Shown here one piece after another: positions 3-17,000 of a stretch of DNA of 22,290 nucleotides. The DNA comes from a virus: the IMG/VR virus record IMGVR_UViG_3300027976_000242, positions 1 to 22,290 of that record; one strand, written 5' to 3'. Position 1 is the first letter of the stretch. Each line of letters opens with the position of its first letter. The notes under the pieces are model-generated. The model saw only the letters and a program-made list of their open reading frames with translations, was not told where the DNA came from and did not search any database. The position numbers and the translations under genes were made by a program.

Positions 3-287
3 GTAGCGAAGCCACTCCAGTCCAACACTGGCGGCTTCCGCACTACTGATGTTGAAAGCGGCGCGTATGTCGCCCAGCAGTCTGCCGTTCGTCGCCTAAC
101 CCCAACGGAATGTGAACGACTAATGAGCTGGCCGGATGGCTGGACAAGCGTGGACGGTGACAAGACACCGGACGGGCGCAGGTATAAGGCTTGCGGGAAC
201 GGGGTCGTGAGCAATGTGAGCGAGTGGATTGGGCGACGTATTCTCGCGGTTGAAAATGAAGATGCGTCAGACGCAGGGCAAGCGTAG
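3..287 (+). CDS. C5-cytosine-specific DNA methyltransferase, C-terminal part (5' end outside window)
   Basis: This frame is open from the window edge to a TAG at 285-287, so only the last ~94 codons are present. The peptide contains RRLTPTECERLMSWPDGW (about 90-143), which matches motif IX of C5-cytosine methyltransferases. It is followed by RYKACGNGVVSNVSEWIGRRI (about 180-242), the motif X region that helps build the SAM pocket. The family transfers a methyl group from SAM to carbon 5 of cytosine; catalytic motifs I, IV and VI would lie upstream and cannot be checked. In phages such orphan enzymes commonly protect DNA from host restriction. The gene converges on the minus-strand Ku gene, with a hairpin between them. 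Family assignment is firm; target specificity and intactness are unknown. Confidence 0.88.
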   Translation, partial: VAKPLQSNTGGFRTTDVESGAYVAQQSAVRRLTPTECERLMSWPDGWTSVDGDKTPDGRRYKACGNGVVSNVSEWIGRRILAVENEDASDAGQA

Positions 288-311
288 CTAGACCTATCGC
301 TGACGCAACGA

Positions 312-340
312 GGAGCGCCCGCGTGTCGGGCGGACGCTCC
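312..340. terminator. Candidate bidirectional terminator hairpin between methyltransferase and ku
   Basis: GGAGCG (312-317) pairs with CGCTCC (335-340), and CCCG (318-321) pairs with CGGG (327-330). This leaves a five-base loop and a four-base bulge on the 3' side. It lies exactly between two convergent stop codons (287 and 348), where a shared terminator is expected. There is no clear T-run on either side, so if it terminates it does so without a canonical U tract, as is common in actinobacteria. Moderate confidence based on position plus stem. Confidence 0.5.
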
Positions 341-347
341 CTTCGCG

Positions 348-1130
348 TTAGGCGCTGAGGCTGGCTTCTAGCAGCGCGGTAAGATCCTGCGATGCGGTGA
401 CCTTCGCTGCGCTTGCGGGCTTGACTGTGATTGTCTTGCCTGCTATCGCGTCGTCGACCAGCTTCTGCTTCAGGGCGATGGCTTCGTCCACCTCGGTGCT
501 GAGGACATCGTGACCGTCAGGCATTTGCTCGATCACTGCGCGAGCCATCTCTACTTGGTCTTGGTTGACTTCGCTTTGCTGCGGCGCGATTAGCGCGTCG
601 TCGGTGCCTCGGACGCAGGAAGCGAACTCCAGCGTGTTCATTACGAGGCAGCCTCGTGAGCCATCCGCGTAGATGACCGCCAGCTTCTGACGCGAGCGTG
701 CTGTCCATTTCGCTGTGATTGCGCGCTCCTCCTCCAGCAGGGCTTCGTAGATCAGGCGGTATGCTTGGTGCGCTCCGCCCTTTGTTGGTGACTGGATGTA
801 GTAGAAGCCTGTTACGCGGTCGAAGGGAATCTCCTCGACTGGCAGCGACCCATTGACGCGCATTTCGTCCAGCTTCGTGGCTTCGTTGATCTGCTCCAGT
901 GCTTCGGCGGGGATTGGATGGAAGTCGTCACCGACCCGAAGCCCGTGCTGCACCTCAGTGGTTTCGACCTGCTCGCCTGTCACCGAGTCGATCAGTAGCT
1001 GCTTGAGCGCGCCCCCGGAGGGTCCTGCGCGATCCAGCTTCACGTCTTTGCTTTCCGTTCCCTTGCAGATCTGGATTGGAATCTTGATCAGATCGTTGAG
1101 GGCGAGAATCGTGTTGTTCGTGGCTTTCAT
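348..1130 (-). CDS. ku: Ku-family DNA end-binding protein (phage NHEJ)
   Basis: The 260-residue product aligns by eye with bacterial Ku through most of its length. An N-terminal strand segment ends IKIPIQICKGTES (residues ~14-26). A mid region has GEQVETTEVQHGLRVGDDFHPI. The core has FYYIQSPTKGGAHQAYRLI followed by ITAKWTARSRQKLAVI. The segment QVEMARAVIEQM corresponds to the conserved ELxMAxxLIxxM helix near the end of the Ku core. Bacterial Ku is typically ~270-300 residues, so this is a compact version with a short, Lys/Ala-containing tail. Ku homodimers thread onto double-stranded DNA ends and recruit an ATP-dependent ligase. The start has a strong Shine-Dalgarno (GGGAGG, four bases before ATG). 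It is divergent from an ATP-dependent ligase gene, which strongly supports an end-joining role. No catalytic residues are expected in this family. Confidence 0.92.
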   Translation of the reverse strand: MKATNNTILALNDLIKIPIQICKGTESKDVKLDRAGPSGGALKQLLIDSVTGEQVETTEVQHGLRVGDDFHPIPAEALEQINEATKLDEMRVNGSLPVEEIPFDRVTGFYYIQSPTKGGAHQAYRLIYEALLEEERAITAKWTARSRQKLAVIYADGSRGCLVMNTLEFASCVRGTDDALIAPQQSEVNQDQVEMARAVIEQMPDGHDVLSTEVDEAIALKQKLVDDAIAGKTITVKPASAAKVTASQDLTALLEASLSA

Positions 1131-1158
1131 GTTGCCTCCCTATTTAGTTGACAACCCC

Positions 1159-1187
1159 ATACAAGCTTGATTCGCCAGCAAAGTCAA
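1159..1187 (-). promoter_or_regulatory. Candidate sigma70-type promoter for ku
   Basis: On the minus strand TTGACT (1187-1182) is followed by a 17-base spacer and TTGTAT (1164-1159). The predicted start lies near 1152, about 22 bases upstream of the ku ATG, leaving room for the GGGAGG ribosome site. An odd palindrome GTTGACAAC (1147-1155) overlaps the predicted start site and could be an operator. Confidence 0.6.
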
Positions 1188-1220
1188 GCCGTTTCGCAAT
1201 CTTATTTCTTTCGGGATCGC

Positions 1221-1249
1221 TGGACTTTGGGACCCGCTCGAGCTATCGT
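1221..1249 (+). promoter_or_regulatory. Candidate promoter for the ligase operon
   Basis: TGGACT (1221-1226), a 17-base spacer and TATCGT (1244-1249) each match four of six sigma70 consensus bases. The predicted transcript would start near 1256 and include TAGGAGG (1267-1273), five bases before the ligase ATG. It lies back to back with the ku promoter, with 33 bases between the -35 elements. Confidence 0.45.
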
Positions 1250-1278
1250 TGTTAGCCCGACCGAGATAGGAGGAACCA

Positions 1279-2205
1279 ATGGACGCAACACTCACGCCCC
1301 TCGCACCAACTAGCGCTGAGGGACTCGCGCAGAACGCGAAGGCCATCAAGAGCGTTACGGAAGCGGGAATAGCCAACGCGGTGCTGGAACCTAAGCTCGA
1401 TGGCTGGAGGCTTCTCGCGCACATCCAAACGGGTCGCGTTGACGTTTACTCAAGGACAGCGAAGTCCTACTCTGGCAGGCTGCCTGCCATTGAGAAGGAA
1501 CTTGCCGCACTTTTCCCTGCTGGCACTTGGGTAGACGGGGAAGCGGTCGCCATCCGAGTGGAGAACGGGCTTGTAATCAACGATTGGGGGCAGGCGCAAA
1601 GCGCTCTGTCTAGCACAGCAGGCAAAGCGGAAGCTGCCGCTGACGCAATTACTTTCATGGCGTTCGACTTGATTGCCTACGACGACATTGACATTCGCTC
1701 CTTGCCTTTCTCAACTAGGCGGGCAGCCCTGGAGCGAATCTTCAACGGCGAGGCTACTGAGAGGGTTCAGCTCAACGCGCAGGTAGAACCAACGGACAAT
1801 AATCACGAGGCGTTCATCGCGCAAGGCTTCGAAGGGTCAATGCTGAAGAACCTTAACGCGCCTTACGCAAGCGGAAAGCGCGGAGCCGGATGGTTCAAGC
1901 TGAAAGCAACAACAACCATTGACACCGTGATCATGGGTTACAAGGAAGGCAAGGACGGCTTCGCTGGAATGATTGGTGCAATCATCTTTGGCCAGCACGA
2001 CAAGAACGGGACGCTAGTGGAGCGAGGCTCCTGCTCCGGGATGGACATGCGTACCCGCAAGCTAATTTCAAAGGACACCACGAAGCACCTCGGTCGCGTA
2101 ATTGAGGTGGCGCACATGGGGGAGATGCCATCGGGCGGGCTGCGGCACCCGCAATTCAAACGCTGGCGTGATGACAAGCTCGCAGCTGACTGCGGGATTC
2201 ACTAA
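1279..2205 (+). CDS. ATP-dependent DNA ligase
   Basis: All main nucleotidyltransferase motifs are visible in the 308-residue product. Motif I is EPKLDGWR with adenylated Lys39. Motif Ia is SRTAKSYSGRLP (58-69). Motif III is DGE (86-88), followed by FMAFDLIAYD (126-135). Motif IV is EGSMLK (185-190) and motif V is WFKLKA (205-210). The OB-fold C-terminus carries the motif VI-like stretch RHPQFKRWRDDK (289-300). The enzyme seals nicks through enzyme-AMP and DNA-AMP intermediates. It has a ligase core and OB fold only, without the polymerase or phosphoesterase domains of full-length bacterial LigD. It starts with a strong ribosome site and is divergent from ku, so it is the likely partner ligase for Ku. 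A role in replication or repair nick sealing is also possible. Confidence 0.93.
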   Translation: MDATLTPLAPTSAEGLAQNAKAIKSVTEAGIANAVLEPKLDGWRLLAHIQTGRVDVYSRTAKSYSGRLPAIEKELAALFPAGTWVDGEAVAIRVENGLVINDWGQAQSALSSTAGKAEAAADAITFMAFDLIAYDDIDIRSLPFSTRRAALERIFNGEATERVQLNAQVEPTDNNHEAFIAQGFEGSMLKNLNAPYASGKRGAGWFKLKATTTIDTVIMGYKEGKDGFAGMIGAIIFGQHDKNGTLVERGSCSGMDMRTRKLISKDTTKHLGRVIEVAHMGEMPSGGLRHPQFKRWRDDKLAADCGIH

Positions 2206-3682: not shown

Positions 3683-4684
3683 ATGGGGCACGGAATAACA
3701 GACGCGGACACAATGTTCAGTGTTAGAGAGATGCCTTGGCATGGGCTTGGCTCAGTCCTTGAGCAGCACCCGGACAGCGTGGACGACGCGCTCCAAAAGT
3801 CCGGGTTGGACTGGCAGATCATTCAGCGGCCAGTATTCATGCCGGACGCGGTGCCAGCAGCGGACGACAACAGCAACTCCACGTGGACACCGTCCTACGT
3901 GCAAATTCCTGACACGCTCGCTAACGTCCGTGAGGACACTAACTGCGTTCTTGGCCTGGTGGGAGAAGGCTACGAAGTTGTTCAGAATCGGCAAGCCTTT
4001 GAGTTCCTGGACGCGGTACTCGGAACCGACCTGATGTTTGAGACCGCAGGAAGCTTGCGTGGAGGGAAGCGAGTGTGGGTTCTCGCAAGGCGACCTGACT
4101 TCGTGAAGGTAGCTGGTGACGACACCGCCACCTTCGTGTTCATTGCCAGCAGCCACGACGGAACAATGAGCGTCACGTCAGCGGTCACTCCGGTACGAAT
4201 CGTTTGCGCGAACACACTTGGCGTTGCGTTGCGTGGCACTGATGCAAGCCCACGCACGTTCCGAATGCGGCACACTGCTGGCATTGACCAGAAGTGGGAG
4301 GAGGCACGGCAGGTAATGCAGCTAACCGTAAGCTACGAGGAGCGCTTCCAAGCGGCTGGTGACCGAATGGGCAGGGAGAAGCTAACGGTCGACCGCTTCG
4401 TGAACGTGCTGGAGACACTGCTTCCCCGCGACGATGAGATGGGAACGCTCGCTAAGCAAAACCGGGTTGATGCAACGGAGCAGATAATCAACATTTACCG
4501 AGGGCTTGGCAGCAGCGGTGACACGACAGGAAACTCACCTCACACCAAGTGGGCGGCCTGGAACGCTGTTGGAGAATGGAGCGACTGGTACCGTCGCCAA
4601 ACGAAGAACACGGATCAGGTGCAGCGCTCCTTCGAAGATAACCGCTTGAAGCAGGATGCCTTCGACCTACTCACCGTCGCATAA
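3683..4684 (+). CDS. DUF932 / TIGR03299-type phage/plasmid-like protein
   Basis: The 333-residue product begins MGHGITDADTMFSVREMPWHGLG. It carries NCVLGLVGEGYEVVQNRQAFEFLDAVLG (about residues 86-115), then GSLRGGKRVWVLARRPDFVKV and TPVRIVCANTLGVAL. These are hallmarks of the DUF932 family often called phage/plasmid-like protein TIGR03299. The C-terminal part (GREKLTVDRFVNVLETLLP, then a WNAVGEWSDW region) fits the family. Function is not established; members sit in accessory regions of phages and plasmids. A clear AAGGAG lies nine bases upstream of the ATG, and the 3' end overlaps the next ATG as TAATG. Confidence 0.85.
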   Translation: MGHGITDADTMFSVREMPWHGLGSVLEQHPDSVDDALQKSGLDWQIIQRPVFMPDAVPAADDNSNSTWTPSYVQIPDTLANVREDTNCVLGLVGEGYEVVQNRQAFEFLDAVLGTDLMFETAGSLRGGKRVWVLARRPDFVKVAGDDTATFVFIASSHDGTMSVTSAVTPVRIVCANTLGVALRGTDASPRTFRMRHTAGIDQKWEEARQVMQLTVSYEERFQAAGDRMGREKLTVDRFVNVLETLLPRDDEMGTLAKQNRVDATEQIINIYRGLGSSGDTTGNSPHTKWAAWNAVGEWSDWYRRQTKNTDQVQRSFEDNRLKQDAFDLLTVA

Positions 4685-4966: not shown

Positions 4967-6004
4967 GTGCCTCTCGCGCAATGGAAAGCCTTCGACGCTC
5001 TCCCGTCCTACTACGGTGGGAAGAGGAGGCTTGCGCCACGAATCTTTCAGGCAATAGAGCGCGCTGGTGTTCCTAAAGCACAGGGACGGGTTCTTCTCGA
5101 TCCGTTTATGGGCGGCGGATCTATTAGCTTGCTTGCGAAGGCGCTGGGCTACCGAGTGCTGGCAAATGACATTAGTGTCAGGAGCGCGGCGGTTGGGGAG
5201 GCGCTAATTGTTAACAGCCACGTTAAGCTTGACGAAACCGATTTGGCCCGCGCATTGAAAGTTAATGCTGACGACTGGCAAATGCCGCCAATTGACAAGA
5301 TGGCATTGCTAGATGAGGCGCGTGTTGTCATGGCGAGGCTTTGCAAGGCCGCGGCGGCGAGCGAGTTTCCTGAGAAACGAGCGTTACTGCGGCTGCTGGC
5401 CATTAAAAGCACGCTGAGCCTTGCCCCCTGGGGGCAGGTCTCATCTACGGTTGGCAAGCGCATACGGGAGGAGGCTTGGGATGACCTCTCGCAGCCGATG
5501 CGGGCGATGCTAGAGCCAATGTATAGACCGAACCGGCTAATCCGCCAGATGATAAGCAAAATCAACGCGGGCGTGTTCAACAACAGTTGGAGCAATGAGA
5601 TGCATTGCGGGGATGTACTCGAGTTCCTTAGCGGCGTTCAAGGCGACGTTGTTTATCTTGACCCTCCGTACCCGGACACAATTGCTTACGAAAGTGAGTA
5701 CGCGGCACTTGACGAAATGCTGACCGGGGAACCAGCGCAGCTAGAGAAAAGCCGGTTCAGCGCGAAGGATGGCTGGGAGTTCCTAGGTGACGTGTATGAT
5801 GCTTCGGAGCATATCCCCGTGTGGGTACTATCACTTGGCAACAAGGCGGTTGACGTAGAGACCCTTGCTTCAATGATGCGCGAGAGGGGCAGGGCAGTAG
5901 ATTCCCAAGAAATCAACTATGCGCATTTGGCATATCGGGCTGCTGAGGAAACTCAGGAGAAACATAAGGAGTTCATCATTACTGCCGTTAAGGAGAAGTC
6001 GTGA
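4967..6004 (+). CDS. DNA N6-adenine methyltransferase, D12 (Dam-like) class
   Basis: The product has the D12-class motifs in order: SYYGGKRRLAP (14-24, motif X), LLDPFMGGGSISL (43-55, motif I, the SAM loop) and YLDPPYPDT (230-238, motif IV DPPY catalytic site). Its 345 residues fit a full enzyme with a target-recognition region between motifs I and IV. It transfers a methyl group from SAM to the N6 of adenine. Its stop overlaps the GTG of a ParB-fold gene (GTGA), a common phage pairing. The GTG start has no clear ribosome site and is probably leaderless. The recognition sequence cannot be inferred. Confidence 0.9.
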   Translation: MPLAQWKAFDALPSYYGGKRRLAPRIFQAIERAGVPKAQGRVLLDPFMGGGSISLLAKALGYRVLANDISVRSAAVGEALIVNSHVKLDETDLARALKVNADDWQMPPIDKMALLDEARVVMARLCKAAAASEFPEKRALLRLLAIKSTLSLAPWGQVSSTVGKRIREEAWDDLSQPMRAMLEPMYRPNRLIRQMISKINAGVFNNSWSNEMHCGDVLEFLSGVQGDVVYLDPPYPDTIAYESEYAALDEMLTGEPAQLEKSRFSAKDGWEFLGDVYDASEHIPVWVLSLGNKAVDVETLASMMRERGRAVDSQEINYAHLAYRAAEETQEKHKEFIITAVKEKS

Positions 6005-6681
6005 GCATTGAAGATTTAGCAGAGGGTCCGAAGCTAAACATTGTGTCGGCTCCCATTGATCGCATCCGTCCTAACCCGGCGAACCCAAACGAACTTGATC
6101 CCGTCAAGATGGAAACCCTGAAAAGTGACATTGCGCTAAATGGGTTCACTCAACCAATCCTAGTTCGTCCCGTTGAAGGAGACAAGGATTGCGACTATGA
6201 GCTCGTGGACGGTGAACATCGCTGGCTCGTGCTTCGGGAGCTTGGCGCATCAACGGTTCCGGCAGTGGTGCAGGAAGCTGACGACACGGAAGCTGCGCTG
6301 CGAATGATCACAATGAACCGGTTGCGCGGCGATTTCATTCCCATTCAGCTCGCGCACTTGCTGGTACGCCTAAGCGAAACCATCTCAGAAGCTGAACTGA
6401 AGAAACGGCTTGGTATGACCGAGCCGGAACTGCGTGACACTTTGCAGCTAGCTGACTTTTCAGACAAGCTTGCCGATGAGCTTCGAGAAGCACAGGAACG
6501 TGAGGAACGCGAAGCCCCGGACATTGTTACGTTCGTGCTGCAAAAAAAGGACTCTGTTCTAGTGGAGCGCGTTCTTCAGTCGTTACTTGAGGAGGATTCT
6601 AAAGCTGATCGCGCTAAGGCTCTGGTGACAGTGTTCCGCGCTTACGAAAGTCTAAACAAGCTAAAGGAAACTAAAAGCTGA
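6001..6681 (+). CDS. ParB/Srx-fold (ParB N-terminal domain-like) protein
   Basis: Residues ~12-95 match the ParB N-terminal/sulfiredoxin fold. The visible segments are PIDRIRPNPANPNELD, then LKSDIALNGFTQPILVRPV, then YELVDGEHRWLVLRELG (67-82), where GEHR replaces the GERR nucleotide-binding box of ParB, then VPAVV. The region LAHLLVRLSETISEAELKKRLGMTEPEL looks like the ParB helical HTH region. A charged helical tail follows. Phage proteins of this type usually accompany DNA methyltransferases, and roles proposed for relatives include NTP-dependent DNA binding and nuclease activity. There is no ParA gene here, so partition is unlikely. AAGGAG precedes the GTG start, which overlaps the methyltransferase stop. 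Confidence 0.82.
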   Translation: MSIEDLAEGPKLNIVSAPIDRIRPNPANPNELDPVKMETLKSDIALNGFTQPILVRPVEGDKDCDYELVDGEHRWLVLRELGASTVPAVVQEADDTEAALRMITMNRLRGDFIPIQLAHLLVRLSETISEAELKKRLGMTEPELRDTLQLADFSDKLADELREAQEREEREAPDIVTFVLQKKDSVLVERVLQSLLEEDSKADRAKALVTVFRAYESLNKLKETKS

Positions 6682-8746: not shown

Positions 8747-9271
8747 GTGACTGAGAAGAAACAAGACAAAATGACGCTCGCTAAGCGTGCTGGTCGCCAC
8801 GCGGACATTGTGGAGGCTTGGCTACGTGGCCTTGGCCCCACGCAGATTGCTGCGACCTTCAGTTTGTCGCAGCGGCAGGTGTACCGCGTTATCGCTGAGT
8901 ACAAGGAATCACAGCCGGTACTTACCGACCAGGACCCCATCGCGATTTTGGAGGAGCGGCTAATGAAACTGGAGGCCGCTGCGCAGGAGTACGCGCTCAT
9001 TGCACAAACAACTAAGAGCGAGCAAATTCGTGTGGCCGCAATCTCTAAGCGCCTGGACGCTTATCAGCAGGCAACTGAACTGATGCAGAAAACTGGTATT
9101 TTGCCAAACAATCTTGGGACGCTTGGAGTGACCCTTGACGTGAAGCAGCTAGCGAAGCGTGTCGTCGATACCGTTGAGGAGCTTGGATTATCAGCGGAGC
9201 AAGCACAATCGGTGCTTGAAGCAATCACTGGGGAAGTGTTTGTCATTGAAAGCGAAGCGGTCGAAGAGTGA
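8747..9271 (+). CDS. terS: Terminase small subunit
   Basis: The 174-residue product lies directly upstream of the large terminase and overlaps it as GTGA. Residues ~28-52 form a helix-turn-helix, GLGPTQIAATFSLSQRQVYRV, the usual DNA-binding element. A long helical region with a coiled-coil look (ILEERLMKLEAAAQEYALI) follows, likely for oligomerisation. Small subunits recognise the packaging site and regulate the motor. A Gly-rich ribosome site (GCGGGGGAA) precedes the GTG start. The identity rests on HTH, position and size rather than on a conserved family signature. Confidence 0.78.
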   Translation: MTEKKQDKMTLAKRAGRHADIVEAWLRGLGPTQIAATFSLSQRQVYRVIAEYKESQPVLTDQDPIAILEERLMKLEAAAQEYALIAQTTKSEQIRVAAISKRLDAYQQATELMQKTGILPNNLGTLGVTLDVKQLAKRVVDTVEELGLSAEQAQSVLEAITGEVFVIESEAVEE

Positions 9272-10983
9272 GTCCTGTTTCAACTGACAAAGATTTGGCT
9301 GCCGCTATTCACGCTGACTACTTGCAGCGGTTGAACGTGCGCGCTGGTGTTCGTACCCCGTTCTTTACTTGGGCGATGCGCGTTCCGGAACCCAAGACTG
9401 GCCGTCTTGACTTCAAGCGCTTTCCGTATCAGGTGGAGCTTTACAAAGATGGGGCTGATACCAAAGAGGTTGTGATAATGAAAGCAACGCAAGTTGGTGT
9501 GAGCGCGTATTTGGCGCGCTGGGTTATGTATTGGGCTGATGTGCAGAGTGTCACAGCGTTGTATGTGTTCCCGAAGCTGAAACAAATGTACGACTTTGCT
9601 GATGCTCGTGTCCGAGCGTCAATTATGGAAAGCGAGTATTTGATGACTCGTATTCCCATGTCGTTTGTGCAGAACAAAGGCTTGAAGCAAATTGGTGGCG
9701 GTTTCGTTTACTTTCGTGGCTCCGAAAGCAAAGCCGACCTAGATTCCGTTGACGCTGACGTTCTTGCCTTGGATGAATACGACACGTTGACTCACGCGCA
9801 CATTCCTGATGCTGAACGTCGCTTGTCTGGTTCCACTTTGGGTTTGATTCGCCGTGTTGGTGTTCCCTCAATCCCGAATTGGGGGATTGATAAGTTGTTT
9901 GCGGAGTCCGACCAGCGTAACTGGATGGTGCGTTGCGAAGCGTGCAACGAATGGCAACCAATTACATTTGAGGACAATCTTGATCCCGACAAGCTGCTGA
10001 TTGTTTGTCGCAAGTGCCGCAAGGCACTGGATGTTGCTATTGGCGAGTGGGTTGCCACATTCCCGGACAGGGACGCTCGCGGCTACCACATGCCTCGCCT
10101 AATTGTTCCGGACACGAACTTGAAGGCAATTTATCAAGCGTCACTGAGTATCAACCCGTCAGAACGCACCGTGTTCTTCAACAAGGACTTGGCGCTTGCT
10201 TACGCCCCGGAGGAGGGTCGCCTAAGTGACGCTGCCATTCAGGCCGCGCAGTCCGCTGGCGGCGGCTACACGCTTGCGTCAAGTTACACTGGCAGCAACC
10301 TGGTGACAATGGGAGTTGATGTTGCTTCGGTACGAGCTTTGAACGTTCGGATTTCTGAGTGGATGGATAACGGAACGAAACGAGCCTTGTTTATTGGGAA
10401 GGTTGACACGTTTGATGGCCTGTCCTTGCTGATGGAACGCTTTGCTGTCAAAATGGCCGCAATTGATCACTTGCCGGAAGGTCGTCTTTCACGGTCGTTT
10501 GCTGAAAAGTTTCCTGGCCGCGTGTATCTCGTGTGTTACGACACGACCCGTAGCCCAAGGGACACTGAGGTACTGAAAGTCAATGAGGATGCTCGGTTGG
10601 CAACGGTGCGGCGCGTTGAAGCCATTGACGCTACGTTCGAGCAAATTAGGCTTCAGTTAAATCAGCTACCGGAGGACTTGCCGGACGGGTATGTGAAGCA
10701 ACTTCAGTCACTTGTTCGCGTGGCAGAGAAAGATGAGGTTGGCCGCACCTCAGTGAGTTACAGGTCCACTGGGGAGGATGATTACGCTCACGCCGAAGTG
10801 TATGATCTTGTTGCTTCTGAGCTTTGGCGTTTCCGCACGGCAAGCGATCATTTAATGAGCGAGAAGTTCACGCCACTGGACGAAATGATGGAGTTTCAGC
10901 GAGCAGACCTATCTAGCGTTGATGACAATGTTGATTACAGTCCAGGACTAGAAAACAATGATGATCTGGGCGGGGGTCTATGA
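9268..10983 (+). CDS. terL: Terminase large subunit (GpA family)
   Basis: The 571-residue protein has an ATPase domain with a Walker A-like loop KATQVGVSA (72-80, an atypical P-loop as often seen in GpA-type terminases). The Walker B is VLALDEYD (165-172), with catalytic Glu170. A four-cysteine zinc insertion, CEAC (223-226) and CRKC (247-250), is typical of GpA-like enzymes. The C-terminal nuclease domain contains MGVDVASVRAL, with candidate metal ligand Asp351. It cuts concatemers and pumps DNA into the procapsid through the portal. The start GTG overlaps the small-subunit stop. It is a full-length gene at the head of the packaging and head block. Confidence 0.93.
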   Translation: MSPVSTDKDLAAAIHADYLQRLNVRAGVRTPFFTWAMRVPEPKTGRLDFKRFPYQVELYKDGADTKEVVIMKATQVGVSAYLARWVMYWADVQSVTALYVFPKLKQMYDFADARVRASIMESEYLMTRIPMSFVQNKGLKQIGGGFVYFRGSESKADLDSVDADVLALDEYDTLTHAHIPDAERRLSGSTLGLIRRVGVPSIPNWGIDKLFAESDQRNWMVRCEACNEWQPITFEDNLDPDKLLIVCRKCRKALDVAIGEWVATFPDRDARGYHMPRLIVPDTNLKAIYQASLSINPSERTVFFNKDLALAYAPEEGRLSDAAIQAAQSAGGGYTLASSYTGSNLVTMGVDVASVRALNVRISEWMDNGTKRALFIGKVDTFDGLSLLMERFAVKMAAIDHLPEGRLSRSFAEKFPGRVYLVCYDTTRSPRDTEVLKVNEDARLATVRRVEAIDATFEQIRLQLNQLPEDLPDGYVKQLQSLVRVAEKDEVGRTSVSYRSTGEDDYAHAEVYDLVASELWRFRTASDHLMSEKFTPLDEMMEFQRADLSSVDDNVDYSPGLENNDDLGGGL

Positions 10984-11033
10984 TCTGCAGTGTTGTTATG
11001 GCAGCTGACCCCGCTACGCTTCCTTTCAGATGA
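10980..11033 (+). CDS. Candidate 17-aa linking ORF
   Basis: ATG at 10980 overlaps the terL stop as ATGA, and the frame reads MICSVVMAADPATLPFR before TGA at 11031-11033. That stop overlaps the ATG of the next gene, again as ATGA. The segment GGGCGGGGG just upstream can serve as a ribosome site. Such a tiny ORF could pass ribosomes from terL to the next gene by termination-reinitiation, or it may be chance. No homologue is recognisable at this length. Confidence 0.4.
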   Translation: MICSVVMAADPATLPFR

Positions 11034-11296
11034 ACGCTCCTACCAAATCCCTACCGAAGCCCATTAGGCTCATTGACCAGAAGGACGTGATCTGTCCTGC
11101 CGGTGAGGCGTGCGGGGCAGGCAAGGCTGTTAGGTGCCGCATTGAGCATTCAACAATTGTGGCGGCAGAAAACCCGTCAACAGTTCAAGGGTTCTGCCTT
11201 GGGCAGTACATGCTGTGTCCTACTTGGCAGGCAGAAAAGCAACGCATAGAAGCCAACCGGATCGCTCCTCTTGTGAGCGAATGGCACGGTGAGTGA
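11030..11296 (+). CDS. Small Cys-rich hypothetical protein between terminase and portal (88 aa)
   Basis: The product contains VICPAGEACGAGKAVRC and GFCLGQYMLCPTW, i.e. five cysteines in two clusters, which may bind a metal. The N-terminus is Lys/Pro-rich. No family recognised. Its position between terminase and portal is unusual for a conserved head gene. Its ATG overlaps the stop of the 17-residue ORF, and its stop overlaps the next start, so it is part of the late operon. Confidence 0.68.
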   Translation: MNAPTKSLPKPIRLIDQKDVICPAGEACGAGKAVRCRIEHSTIVAAENPSTVQGFCLGQYMLCPTWQAEKQRIEANRIAPLVSEWHGE

Positions 11297-11505
11297 TGGT
11301 AACGACAAGCGACTTGTTGATAAGGCCAGCCGTTGGCGGTTACATCACCGACGGGCAGCGACTGCTGTATGTTTTGGGGCTCAACGCGGATGCGCACTAT
11401 CAAGTAGAAAACGCCGCCACTGGCAAGGTGGAAACCTTGGTGCCTAAGCTACTAACGGAAGATGTTTGGCGCATAATCATTTTGGAGGAAACCAATGGCG
11501 CGTGA
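11293..11505 (+). CDS. Small hypothetical protein (70 aa)
   Basis: It starts at GTG 11293 or at the adjacent ATG 11296, both overlapping the previous stop. The product has GGYITDGQRLLYVLGLNAD and YQVENAATGKVETLV, a beta-rich small domain that reads like a phage head accessory or SH3-like protein. No defined family is recognised. The last 11 bases overlap the portal start, indicating coupling. Confidence 0.65.
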   Translation: MMVTTSDLLIRPAVGGYITDGQRLLYVLGLNADAHYQVENAATGKVETLVPKLLTEDVWRIIILEETNGA

Positions 11506-13495
11506 CGGCGGCGGGTTCGTTAATTGGCTGCGTGAAACAACTGAGGACAGGTTGGGTTACTCGATAACGCCAACTGAAAGCTTGGAGCTGCTGGAAGCAG
11601 AAAGCCTGGATCGTCGCATGTTGCAGCGCGAACTGCATCAGCTTGCTTACACAGCGTTGGATTACTCTGGTGGCCGACCGCAGGAAGTTAAGGCATCGAA
11701 GCGTCGTGAAATGGCTCAGAAAGCTCGCGTGGTTTGGATGCACGACCCGCAAGCTGGAGCAACCGTTGATTTGCTGAACTCGTTTGTGTTCGGGCGCGGT
11801 GTTCAAAAGCCTCGTGCTGCGGACCGTTTGGTGCAGCAAGTAATTGATGAAGCTTGGGCTGATCCTGACAACCAAATTGTTCTAACTGGCTTTGATGCGC
11901 AGCTAGCGCTCGGTACTGATCTGCAGCTTCAAAGCAACTTGTTTCTACTGTTCTTTGATGATGGGGAGGATGGGCGCGTAAAGGTTGGGCTACTTGACCA
12001 TGACACCGTTGAGGACGCGGTACGTGACGAAGATAATCGCATGCGTGTTCTGTTCTATATGGCAACTGAGCGTCGTTACCGCTGGGATTATGAGCGCGAC
12101 GCCCCGGACGAGTCCTTGTCTGACAGGGTTAAAGGGAAGCCAGAAATCAAGTATTACGCGCATTGGCGCAACATGCCTGCTGCGATGAAAGCAAACAAGG
12201 AAAGTGGCGTTCCGCTTCCGAAGATGCCCCCGGCCGCTAAGATTGGTGACGGGCTCGTGTATCACCTTGCCGTGAATCGCACTAGCGAACAGGTTTTTGG
12301 TGTGCCAACGATGCAGCGCCTTATTCGCTGGTTTAACGCGTACAACGACTTTATGAGCGCTCGTGTTGATCAGGCGCGTGCTGCTGCCGCGTTCGTAATG
12401 AAGCGCAAAGTTAAGGGAAGCAAAAGCCAGCTTGAAAAGCAGGCAACGCAAGCGCTTTCTAAAAGCAGTTTGCTTGGCTCGTCCGTGACTGCTGATGGAA
12501 CAACGCTTCGTGCCCCGCAACCCGGTTCGGTGCTAAACGAGAACGAAATGGTTTCTCACGAGAATTTCAATTTGACTACGAACGCTGGCAACGCCCTTAC
12601 GGATGGGCAAATGATTCGTTCCCAAATTAGTGCTGCCACGCACTTCCCGCAGCATTATCTTGGTGATGCTGGCTCAGCGAATTTGGCTACGGCCACGAGC
12701 ATGGAGTTGCCTGTACTTAAGACCGTTGAGGCTCGCCAGGAAGCTTTTGAGCAGTTGTTCCGTGCTTTCGTTGATCGTGTTATTGAGCGTGCCCGCGAGG
12801 CAGGCAAACTACCGGAGCAACTGACAACGCAGGAAATAAACGCGCTTGAGCAACGTGACGAAGGTTCGTTTGCCCCGCAGGCAGGTGAGCAGTTCGGCCC
12901 GGAGGACCCAACGAACCAGCAGGTGTTTGGCGCGAACATTCAGGGTGAGGGTTCACCTGTGGATAAGGATCGCTCGAAGGAACGTGACTTTACTTACGAG
13001 TTTGCGATGCCACCACCATTGCGCCGAATGATGGGTGAGCTAGTTACGTCCGTGACTGGTATTGCTAAGACGTTTGATCCGAACGGCACGAACACTGAGC
13101 TGAACAAGATTCTGTTGGGTGTTGTGTTGGGGCAAGGGCTTGAGTTGGAAGATCCCGCTAAGGCCGTTGAGGCCGTGTTCCCTCCTGGTTATAAAGATCC
13201 TGCGGTCGAAGCGTTTGAGCAGCAGCAAGCCGAGAAGGCTGGTGGGCAAGCACCACCAGAACCGGGGCAGCAACCATCGTCGGAAGGTAATCCGTATGGC
13301 GCACCAATGCAAGCGCAAGCACCCGAAGAGGTTATGGAGGGCAGGTACCGTGATCTTCCTGCGGGCATTAGGAACATTGGGGATGCCATGTCAGATGAGA
13401 CCGTTAAAGCATTTGAGCGCGAAGTTATGTCCATTGCGGAGCAGGCATTACTTGATCTTGGCGACATGAACGGTGACCGAATAGGCAAACGGTGA
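11495..13495 (+). CDS. Portal protein
   Basis: The 666-residue protein follows the terminase genes and precedes the MuF gene. It has typical portal stretches: AGATVDLLNSFVFGRGV (about 88-104), NRTSEQVFGVPTMQRLIRWFNAYNDFMSARVDQARAAAAFV (about 257-297) and the conserved helix region AATHFPQHYLGDAGSANLATATSMELPVL (about 381-409). A C-terminal Pro/Gln/Gly-rich segment (QQQAEKAGGQAPPEPGQQPSSEG) is likely disordered. The dodecameric ring at the capsid vertex docks the terminase and the tail. It starts ATG after GGAGGAAACC. Assignment is strong from sequence pattern and context. Confidence 0.88.
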   Translation: MARDGGGFVNWLRETTEDRLGYSITPTESLELLEAESLDRRMLQRELHQLAYTALDYSGGRPQEVKASKRREMAQKARVVWMHDPQAGATVDLLNSFVFGRGVQKPRAADRLVQQVIDEAWADPDNQIVLTGFDAQLALGTDLQLQSNLFLLFFDDGEDGRVKVGLLDHDTVEDAVRDEDNRMRVLFYMATERRYRWDYERDAPDESLSDRVKGKPEIKYYAHWRNMPAAMKANKESGVPLPKMPPAAKIGDGLVYHLAVNRTSEQVFGVPTMQRLIRWFNAYNDFMSARVDQARAAAAFVMKRKVKGSKSQLEKQATQALSKSSLLGSSVTADGTTLRAPQPGSVLNENEMVSHENFNLTTNAGNALTDGQMIRSQISAATHFPQHYLGDAGSANLATATSMELPVLKTVEARQEAFEQLFRAFVDRVIERAREAGKLPEQLTTQEINALEQRDEGSFAPQAGEQFGPEDPTNQQVFGANIQGEGSPVDKDRSKERDFTYEFAMPPPLRRMMGELVTSVTGIAKTFDPNGTNTELNKILLGVVLGQGLELEDPAKAVEAVFPPGYKDPAVEAFEQQQAEKAGGQAPPEPGQQPSSEGNPYGAPMQAQAPEEVMEGRYRDLPAGIRNIGDAMSDETVKAFEREVMSIAEQALLDLGDMNGDRIGKR

Positions 13496-13499
13496 GGTC

Positions 13500-13775
13500 G
13501 TGGAGTACGATCCTTACAAGCTTGCAGGGAACCTTATTGAATCCGGGTTGATTGCTTCGTGCATTCCTGTTGTCAATTCCGACGACGAACTTGATGTTGC
13601 TGTCATAGCTTTGGAAGCTAACTCTCTTGCTTTGGCTGCGTTAACTCACGAGTCCACTGATGTTCGTGTTCATGCCCTGCTAGCGGTTTGTGTTCACGCC
13701 CACAAACTTCTTGCTGATGAGGGGTTGAGATGGACTTACAATGCAGTTTATAATGAGCGGAAGCAAGCTGATTAA
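13500..13775 (+). CDS. Small hypothetical protein (91 aa)
   Basis: GTG start four bases after the portal stop. The product has a short helical pattern, KLAGNLIESGLIASCIPVVNSDDELD, followed by alanine- and leucine-rich helices (LALAALTHESTDVRVHALLAVCVHAHKLL). No family recognised. It overlaps the next gene by 35 bases, a long overlap. A strong promoter-like sequence lies in its last 50 bases. Confidence 0.58.
   Translation: MEYDPYKLAGNLIESGLIASCIPVVNSDDELDVAVIALEANSLALAALTHESTDVRVHALLAVCVHAHKLLADEGLRWTYNAVYNERKQAD
13725..13754 (+). promoter_or_regulatory. Candidate consensus promoter inside the late operon
   Basis: TTGAGA (13725-13730), an 18-base spacer and a perfect TATAAT (13749-13754). 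It lies within the overlapping ends of two small genes. The predicted transcript would start near 13761, after the annotated start of the second small gene, and could feed the giant MuF gene. Confidence 0.4.
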
Positions 13776-13977
13776 AGAGCTGTTGGAGGACTGCGGGTAC
13801 AACTATCCCGAGGTGATTAGTTACGGTGTTGAGGACGAGCGTCTTGTTGCCTTGTTTACTTTGCCGCATGCTTCTCACCGGCGTGGCTTGACTGCGTTCA
13901 TTGCTGAGAACCCTGATGGTGGCATTCCAAGGCTTGAGGTGCGTGACGGGTTTGTTGCTGTCCTTACTTTGGACTAG
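13741..13977 (+). CDS. Small hypothetical protein (78 aa)
   Basis: The frame has ATG codons at 13741 and 13753. The product includes GSKLIKELLEDCGYNYPEVIS and GGIPRLEVRDGFVAVLTLD. It overlaps the previous gene by 35 bases in a different frame. No family recognised. A 55-base gap with a candidate leaderless promoter separates it from the giant gene. The start is uncertain because promoter-like TATAAT lies at its beginning. Confidence 0.55.
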   Translation: MQFIMSGSKLIKELLEDCGYNYPEVISYGVEDERLVALFTLPHASHRRGLTAFIAENPDGGIPRLEVRDGFVAVLTLD

Positions 13978-14020
13978 CTTTCTTACTTGGTTGCTTTGGC
14001 GTGACGACAGTGCTTCCCTT

Positions 14021-14032
14021 TAGACTGACGGA
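14021..14032 (+). promoter_or_regulatory. Candidate -10 element and leaderless start for the giant MuF gene
   Basis: TAGACT (14021-14026) begins 12 bases before the GTG at 14033. Upstream, TTGGCG at 13996-14001 is a possible -35 with a long 19-base spacer. There is no Shine-Dalgarno at proper distance. Confidence 0.5.
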
Positions 14033-17000
14033 GTGCCACCACCCTCGGATAAGCAGCCCGCGCAGTCGCCTCCGTCCTCTCCCGCGACTGCCGCTGCCGT
14101 AACCGCAGGCGGGCAGGCAGCGCTAGGGGCTGGCACTGTGGCCATCCCTGCAGCGGGAGCGGCTGGGGCTGTTGTCATTGCGGCCCCAGCCGCTGGACTT
14201 GTAGCGAAGGTCGTTGGAAGCGTTATTGCTGGGTTAGCGAAGTGGGCGCTTCTTCGTCAAGCTGGGGATGCTTGGTTATCCTCAACGCTTCGGAAGCAAT
14301 ACCCTGATCGGCCTGACCACGAAATTGAGCAGGCCGCACTGCAGGAAGTAGCGTTTGAGAAGGAGTTTCTGCGTCGTATGCGGAAGCGTTTGGAACGTGA
14401 TCTTCCCGAAGCGTTCGCGGAACCTAACCCGCAAACGCGAGAAAAGCGCGTGCAAGCAATTCTTCGTCGTGAACAGCATTACATTCGTTTGCGAGAGGAA
14501 GCAAAACTTAACAGGGCAGTGAACACGGTAGAGCGTTCCATTCTTCGTGAGTATTCCCCCGATGGTGCGTACTGGTGGCTTAGTCCTGACGTTAAGGAAC
14601 ACACCCCGGACTGCGTTGCGTTCGCTGGACGATTCTGGCCTTGGGAGGTTCTAAACCTGGTGCATCCCCCTGTTCATCATGGCTGCGCGTGCCGCCTGTT
14701 CGGAAAGGACGAGGCCATTAGTGCTGGCTGGTTAACGCGGGACAACATTCCGTTGGTTAATGACGCGGTCGTTAACGCCAACGAAATCATTAAGCAGTAC
14801 GGGCTTCTTCAAGAAGCGAACGTTAGTAACGCGGAGCTAGAGCTTTATTTGCAGGAAGCAGTACGACATAATCTTCGTTGGCAAGCAGGGCTAGTAACGG
14901 GAGGGCAGTTTCGTCCGTTGCGTGGCGGCGTTCCGGGTTTGCGTTCCGCTGCGCGTCGTGCTTTGAATGCGTTCCTATCTGATTCAAGTGCTGTGCGTCC
15001 GCTTGCTGGAAGGTTCGTGAAGATTGATGAACGTTCCGAGTGGGTTCCGCAGCGCGGCGAGAAAGTCTTTCCTAGCGTTGACGGTGACCTCGTTAGTCCG
15101 CAGGGAGGCACGAACCTGTACCGCGACGGGGAACTGGTGTCCACTCCGCGTTCCCCGAAGGTGTCTCCGCCACAAACCGTTGTGCTGGAACAAACCATTG
15201 ATGACGTTCGTAGGGAACTGCGTCGCGCTCCTCTAGCCTCTGCCGCAGCGTCAGTACGCAAACTTGACTCGTCTCGCTCACCTATTCGTGACGGCGCGGG
15301 CCCTGAAGCGTTCTTTGCCTTGGAGGACGCTGGGTTCGTTCCAACCATGTCAGCACCAAGCGTTCTGGGCGGCACGGAACATTACTGGAAGCACATTCCA
15401 ACGGGTTCCACCCTGAAGTTCAACACTGATGACCGCATGCGCGTTCACGACGTGCGTTGGGAAGCAGGCGAACGCACTTCCGTTGCCGCTAACTCTCTTT
15501 CGAATGTTCCACCAGTTACTTTTGATGAGTTCGCGGAGTCAAATGTTGTGTGGGCGCACCAAATTGGGGACACATATAATGATGGTGCCGAAATCAGTAG
15601 TTTCGATGAGGACTTCGCGTTCGCTGATACTGCTGGCATGCGTGATTGGGACGGTGTTGTTCACATCGGGCCGGATGCTCGCAGCGCAGTTGAAACTGCT
15701 GCGCAAGCTCGAGCCGAAGGTGTTCCGCTCACGAACTATCAAAAAGAACAGGTTTATCGCGCTTACCAGTGCAGTGTTCACGAGCTAGTTCATTGCAGCA
15801 GCCTTCCGTCTTACGCTGAGTGGCCAGATAGTAAGAACCCTACGATGGAACAGAACGCGGTTCTAAACCTTGAGGAAGCACTCACGGAAGAAATCGCGCA
15901 TGTTCTTGCCGCTGACCGTCTTAGCATGGAAGGGCAAACCGATATTCTCGCGTTCATTCGTGACAATCCGCAGGCCGCTACCGCTCAGGGCGTTTATCAG
16001 GAGCATCGTACGCGACTCGGCAACATTTTGGACGAAGCCCAAGTGCCTCCTGAGCAACGTGAAGGCTTCCTACTTTTCTTGAAGTTCAAGAACCGTTCTG
16101 CTGATGATCGCTTCGGCATACTTGGTGACGCTTTGCAACGTTCGGGTGCGGCTGAAACACTTGTGGCGGGACGCGCTCTCGCTATTGAAATGATGACCGC
16201 TGATGAACATAAACCCAGCCCTGATAGCTGGCAGGCAATTCTTAGCCCGAACTATGGGAGCAGCACTGCAGGTCGGTACGCTGACCTGAACGGCACGCCC
16301 ATTCGTCCCGGAGACACAGTTTCCATTGACGAACCAGACTTTCCTACTGGTGTTGTGGTGCGTGTCGGAATGAGTGATTACGCGAACGAACCAACGGTGC
16401 TGCTGCAAATGCCTGACGGTTCGTTCCGGTACCCAACAATTAGTCAAGTTGAAGTGGACACTGAAGGCCCTGCACCACAAGGCGCTCGGCCTGGGATGAG
16501 CGTTACTTGGGTGAACCTTAACGGCACAGAAGGCAATGGCTGGGTTGACTCGGTGGATAACGGTAATGAGCGGGCCTGGCGGCTTGGGGTTCGTACAAAG
16601 GATGATGGGCATCTTGTTATCACAGCGAAGAATGTGGAACGAATTACCGTTGATCGGGCCCCGCCACAAACCCCAGGTTCAGCGCCTGCTGACCCTCTCG
16701 CCGCAAACCAGCCAACGCAACCAACTACTACTGCTTGGGGAGAGCCACGCTGGACAGAACCTCTTGCTGGTTACGCTGGCGTGCTGTACGCCGTGAATGA
16801 CACGGACAGCGGCATTCTTGTTCGTGAGGACGTGGCCGCTAAGAAACTAGACTCCGAAGCCCTTGCCACTGGCACAAAGATTGATGGCTGGTGGAACTTC
16901 CCTGAAACAAACGGCACGGGCTCAATGTCCGTTGCTGAAGTCGCGCTTGGTATAGCTTCCCCTGAAGTAGCTGCACTGGCCGACCAGCACTTTGATTACT

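Follow-up and report, generated by a model that had tools for sequence, protein, structure and literature searches.

Near one end of the window (the whole 22,290-bp stretch analysed here, which is the entire IMG/VR virus record IMGVR_UViG_3300027976_000242), a gene for a Ku homologue and a gene for a minimal ATP-dependent DNA ligase lie back to back on opposite strands. The record carries terminase, portal, ParB-like and methylase genes and thus represents phage DNA. It is incomplete, as most structural genes are missing, and probably a fragment, as no terminal repeats are present in the 22,290 bp. The relevant features are the following.

3..287, plus strand: C5-cytosine DNA methylase next to Ku, C-terminal end only
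300..349, minus strand: strong hairpin that overlaps the stop codon of Ku (z -3.3; no T run)
348..1130, minus strand: Ku homologue of 260 aa (PF02735, PHROG 4873, TIGR02772 and fold match)
351..395, minus strand: minimal C-terminal motif of Ku, ASQDLTALLEASLSA, with D249, L250 and S257 kept (from alignment)
1077..1097, minus strand: Ku residues 12-18, NDLIKIP, in the place of the inter-dimer synapsis motif (from alignments)
1131..1278, no strand: divergent intergenic region, 148 nt between the Ku and ligase start codons
1279..2205, plus strand: minimal ATP-dependent DNA ligase of 308 aa (PF01068, phrog_114, motifs, model and NCBIfam)
1393..1395, plus strand: K39 in ligase motif I (EPKLDGWR), where adenylylation is expected
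4967-6004: Dam-type methylase
9268..10983, plus strand: gpA-like terminase large subunit (phrog_675), phage context
11495..13495, plus strand: portal protein (phrog_10963), phage context

The divergent arrangement with a 148-nt spacing, described in the first-pass annotation, is borne out by the open reading frames at 348-1130 (minus strand) and 1279-2205 (plus strand), the former being the sole minus-strand gene among those called in the window. Clear Shine-Dalgarno sequences precede both starts of the Ku/ligase pair (GGGAGG and AGGAGG). A promoter scan returned no sigma-70 consensus site within 1131..1278 and nothing above chance in the first 3.7 kb, and the hairpin at 300..349 may mark a transcript end where Ku and the methylase gene converge. 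In exact-word searches, no second copy of the Ku-ligase locus was retrieved; contig L012 is identical to the window over 7,645 bp, spanning 9775-17419 only. By random positioning, the adjacency of Ku and ligase in the window record alone has a p of 0.07, and taken by itself is weak evidence.

The terminase is a remote relative of those of SPO1-type and Thermus phages. Following the portal gene, an open reading frame of 1,871 codons (14033-19648) lacks a Pfam or PHROG match; judged by eye only, its start resembles a head morphogenesis protein through a Cys/His pattern, DCVAFAGRFWPW...HHGCAC.

The Ku and ligase proteins

The reading frame at 348-1130 encodes a divergent Ku. In a profile search, PF02735 matched residues 13-195 with an E-value of 2.6e-21 and 76.8 bits (gathering cut-off 25), confirming the family proposed in the first-pass annotation, and PHROG 4873 ('Ku-like') matched at 5.8e-22, while the score against the bacterial Ku equivalog TIGR02772 (101 bits) fell below the 150-bit cut-off. 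A structure model built from 24 viral Ku sequences (mean pLDDT 81) had as its best PDB matches the DNA-bound Ku proteins of B. subtilis and M. tuberculosis (E 1e-16, TM 0.6-0.7). Close relatives were found neither in the bacterial genomes nor in the plasmids or viral contigs searched: plasmid Ku proteins were at most 29% identical, tblastn against phage records returned no match, and the window protein forms the longest branch in a 39-sequence Ku tree.

This divergence extends to positions of functional interest. By alignment, two DNA phosphate-contact positions are changed (R49 to D and K79 to H). In the Ku proteins of B. subtilis and M. tuberculosis, a GLVNIP/GLVNVP loop makes the inter-dimer contact, and the substitutions N32E and L30G abolished oligomerisation of B. 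subtilis Ku (PMC12784961). The motif GLVN(I/V)P is not kept in the window Ku, which has NDLIKIP in its place, one residue longer.

At the other end of the protein, D249, L250 and S257 correspond to D250, L251 and S258 of M. tuberculosis Ku, with equivalents of D247 and R262 absent. In M. tuberculosis, the extended tail of Ku binds the LigD polymerase domain, residues of the minimal C-terminus are needed to stimulate ligation, and Ku cut to this minimal C-terminus suffices to stimulate double-strand-break ligation by LigD; this shortened form, unlike full-length Ku, also enhances the sealing of nicks by the LigD ligase domain on its own (PMC9638933). The window Ku stops three residues past S257, with no extended basic tail, and therefore lacks the segment that would bind a LigD polymerase domain. 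By analogy, a tail-less Ku next to a polymerase-free ligase may resemble the productive 'Ku-min plus LIG' combination.

The neighbouring gene had been described as a stand-alone ATP-dependent ligase with all motifs intact, and this held up: PF01068 matched at 2.9e-31, phrog_114 at 1.2e-56 (the strongest family match found), and motifs I (EPKLDGWR), III (WVDGEA), IIIa (FDLIAYD), IV (EGSMLKN), V (FKLKAT) and VI (LRHPQFKRWRDDK) are all present. The structure model comprises a nucleotidyltransferase and an OB domain and nothing else, and no LigD polymerase domain is encoded in the (incomplete) window record. The best NCBIfam match was the NHEJ ligase domain TIGR02779, at 126.9 bits still far from the cut-off of 227.75 bits.

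Placement of the ligase is less straightforward. Its best plasmid matches are LigD-type at ~30% identity, and no close relatives were found in viral contigs. Trees put it on the phage side, with the SPO1, T7 and T4 types and away from LigD and LigC, with support of 93/92, or 83/90 when more sequences were included, amid long branches; the tree excludes record L004 and includes L024 only as a LigC-type reference. A longer OB stretch of the aligned LigD/LigC-type sequences is absent from the window ligase. Minimal phage ligases (phrog_114; SPO1-, T7- and T4-like) share with it the nucleotidyltransferase and OB core as well as the side of the tree, but are at most ~30% identical, and the window ligase differs in having a Ku gene 148 nt away. 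On these comparisons the class of the enzyme is ambiguous, probably leaning to the phage ligases, and we do not call it a LigD. Assignment as a plainly LigD-type ligase was supported neither by the trees nor by the TIGR02779 score.

Ku and ligase genes in other viral records

Given the limited weight of a single record, 2.9 million viral contigs were scanned with a degenerate DNA pattern for the Ku FGL-V--PVK motif. Ku was found above the Pfam cut-off in 40 viral records; conservation of FGLV in this set is not independent evidence, since the search pattern required it. Ten of the 40 carried an ATP-dependent ligase (PF01068). In eight of these, the Ku and ligase domains share a strand and are separated by 240-1,086 nt; the remaining two have distances of 3.3 and 4.9 kb. 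Random placement of Ku within each record would give 0.76 cases within 1.5 kb rather than eight (P 1.5e-8, or 1.6e-6 when the isolate-derived G016 and G036 are excluded). An ATP-dependent ligase was present in none of 25 viral records without Ku taken from the same scan (Fisher p 0.01, with record lengths unmatched). With eight of 40 Ku genes within ~1.1 kb of a ligase, at a chance of ~1e-8, the combination of a phage Ku with a stand-alone ligase is recurrent, and the adjacency for which the first-pass annotation had suggested a search is thus found beyond the window. This lends statistical backing to its proposal that a phage might supply a ligase of its own beside Ku, and the 34 Ku records tested yielded no LigD polymerase domain. 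Three further Ku records have an NAD-dependent ligase.

With frames of 260-361 aa, the ligases next to Ku are small, and they come from several lineages. Records G020 and G026 encode a second, larger ligase elsewhere that groups with T4/SPO1-type ligases, indicating that the small enzyme beside Ku is not simply the replication ligase; the second ligases of G013 and G023 are long-branched and unplaced. In five of the ten ligase-bearing records, neither of the two terminase families tried was found, and their viral status is that of the IMG/VR call. A comparison of tail length showed no significant difference between viral Ku proteins that have a ligase neighbour and those that do not (p 0.29), and a proposed shortening of the tail in ligase-linked phage Ku was accordingly dropped.

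The window is the only case of divergent orientation, the eight other viral pairs each sharing one strand. Of the 'end-joining module' named in the first-pass annotation, both protein families were correct and the pairing recurs elsewhere, but the enzyme cannot clearly be classed as an NHEJ ligase, and with separate transcription of the two genes 'module' is a label drawn from recurrence in other records and not from co-transcription.

Cellular systems offer several parallels. In bacterial Ku-LigD pairs (B. subtilis, M. tuberculosis and Caballeronia and Paraburkholderia plasmids), Ku likewise adjoins an ATP-dependent ligase, and the Caballeronia plasmid pair is divergent as well; the window ligase, however, lacks polymerase and phosphoesterase domains and scores under the NHEJ-ligase cut-off, and the window Ku has no extended tail. 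A ligase without other LigD domains, as in the window, lies beside Ku in Archaeoglobus fulgidus (PMC1378119) and in a Rhizobium plasmid Ku-Ku-ligase operon (L011), the Rhizobium ligase differing from that of the window in being LigD/LigC-type with the longer OB region. Phage Ku is likewise already known, as is cellular Ku with a stand-alone ligase (PMC1378119; the Rhizobium plasmid), while a limited search of the open literature returned no description of phages carrying both Ku and their own ligase.

L004 and L024, deposited in GenBank as 'Bacteriophage sp.' and derived from human faeces, appear to be pieces of actinobacterial chromosome and hence contamination, on the grounds of Ku beside an Fpg-like gene or of a LigC-like ligase.

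Readings of the Ku-ligase pair

Our preferred reading, for which we judge the chances to be about even, is that the phage uses Ku and the ligase as a two-protein end-joining set without a polymerase. Ku, presumably as a homodimeric ring consisting of the core and the minimal C-terminus, would thread onto linear double-stranded phage DNA ends, either those of the injected genome or those of breaks made by host nucleases. It would shield these ends and keep them together, allowing the small ATP-dependent ligase to seal them once aligned, with the phage DNA being circularised or repaired as the outcome. We infer the joint action of the two proteins, phage DNA ends as their substrate and circularisation or repair as the result.

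In favour of the end-joining set are the clear families with intact key residues, the lack of an extended Ku tail and of a LigD polymerase domain, and the recurrent adjacency. The M. tuberculosis Ku cut to its minimal C-terminus, moreover, has what appears to be much the architecture of the window Ku (PMC9638933). Other observations speak against it: the genes are divergent in the window and co-directional in the eight other viral pairs; Ku is the longest branch, with what alignments suggest are an altered synapsis motif and two changed DNA-contact positions; the ligase probably sits, with moderate support, among phage-type ligases and not with LigD; and across the survey, tail length is unrelated to a ligase neighbour (p 0.29) and five of the ten ligase-bearing records have no terminase match.

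The chief rival, less likely but a serious one, is a reading in which Ku alone acts as a Gam-like protector of ends against RecBCD/AddAB, and the ligase is an ordinary replication or repair enzyme that is adjacent by chance. Gam of phage Mu binds DNA ends, is considered related to Ku (PMC1378119) and is described as guarding phage ends against RecBCD and similar nucleases (PMC1378119, PMC8987985, PMC12407980). The grouping of the ligase with phage replication ligases (93/92 and 83/90), the divergent genes, the altered synapsis motif and the p of 0.07 for adjacency in the single record would all fit such a shield. However, eight further viral records have Ku and ligase as neighbours, with a separate T4/SPO1-type ligase also present in two of them, and the window Ku keeps D249, L250 and S257 of the minimal C-terminus, in which residues are needed for ligation stimulation in M. 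tuberculosis. The window protein matches the Ku model PF02735 but no Gam model. Mu Gam itself, according to Bhattacharyya et al. 2018 as cited in PMC8987985, has been reported to aid end joining with host ligase.

A narrower form of the end-joining set would have the pair mend restriction or CRISPR breaks made by the host in phage DNA, instead of joining injected ends. The nearby DNA methylases (C5 at 3-287, Dam-type at 4967-6004) may serve anti-restriction, and a C5 methylase abuts Ku and ligase in record G022 too, but methylases are commonplace in phages, and we consider this restriction to breaks unlikely.

It is very unlikely, in our estimation, that the window Ku recruits host LigD to close a short-cohesive-end genome while the phage ligase has another job. 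Such recruitment has been proposed for the mycobacteriophages Omega (cluster J) and Corndog (cluster O), which combine 4-base 3' overhangs with a phage-encoded Ku (PMC3706429, PMC4351075) that, like that of the window, is of similar size and belongs to PHROG 4873. Their relatives WXIN, Courthouse and Catdawg have Ku proteins only 21-22% identical to the window Ku, with no tblastn match, and the Omega-type Ku has an Lsr2-related C-terminal extension (PMC3706429) that is missing from the window protein. Seven Omega-type mycobacteriophage records (L033, L085, L108, L116, L122, L124 and L125) contain Ku with neither an ATP- nor a NAD-dependent ligase, in line with a dependence on host LigD, whereas in the window an ATP-dependent ligase gene adjoins Ku. 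Arguing further against recruitment, the tail with which M. tuberculosis Ku binds the LigD polymerase domain is absent from the window Ku, the host need not have LigD, and the fragment shows no genome ends. Nor does the gpA-like terminase fix the genome end type, and the altered synapsis motif of Ku is a further reservation; that the Ku-ligase pair circularises a short-cohesive-end genome, an outcome with a precedent in Omega and Corndog, is no more than a possibility.

Finally, a chimeric assembly in which a host stretch with Ku and the methylase was fused to a phage contig is extremely improbable: although these genes lie at one contig end and the only independent contig, L012, covers 9775-17419 and not the Ku end, searches of bacterial genomes and plasmids gave no close relative of the window Ku, the ligase and the genes following it are co-directional and tightly spaced, and viral contigs with Ku are not uncommon.

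Extending the two-protein end-joining set beyond the window, phages may repeatedly have assembled a stripped-down NHEJ system from Ku and a small dedicated ligase of varying ancestry, without a polymerase and free of host LigD, that closes or mends linear DNA in NHEJ-less hosts, with the window as a divergent example with a tail-less Ku; we give this proposal slightly less than even chances. Use of NHEJ by phages is known from two mycobacteriophage groups, which carry Ku and are thought to need host LigD. If the proposal is true, few known end-joining machineries would be as small as the recurrent phage Ku-ligase pair, and phages could use end joining in hosts without NHEJ. The pair would also provide a compact two-protein set in which to study how Ku cooperates with a bare ligase, and possibly an end-joining tool for bacteria that lack NHEJ.

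Other genes near Ku

Some neighbours of the window Ku have counterparts in other Ku records. The order C5-cytosine methylase, Ku, ligase seen in the window (methylase at 3-287) is also that of G022 (L178:3798-7228), the two Ku proteins being only distantly similar. ParB-like genes lie a few kb from Ku in the window (6001-6681), in two viral Ku records (L173:8451-10109 and L177:2264-3901) and in mycobacteriophage Catdawg (L006:3749-5257); such genes are common in phages, so this proximity may be due to chance. A DUF932 gene is located near Ku in the window (3683-4684; phage/plasmid-like, TIGR03299) and in G042 (L176:7331-8305). In G020 and G026, whose Ku proteins are related to each other, as are their ligases, a phosphoenolpyruvate carboxykinase gene (E ~1e-160) is encoded less than 7 kb from Ku (L174:10799-12316 and L175:183-1754).
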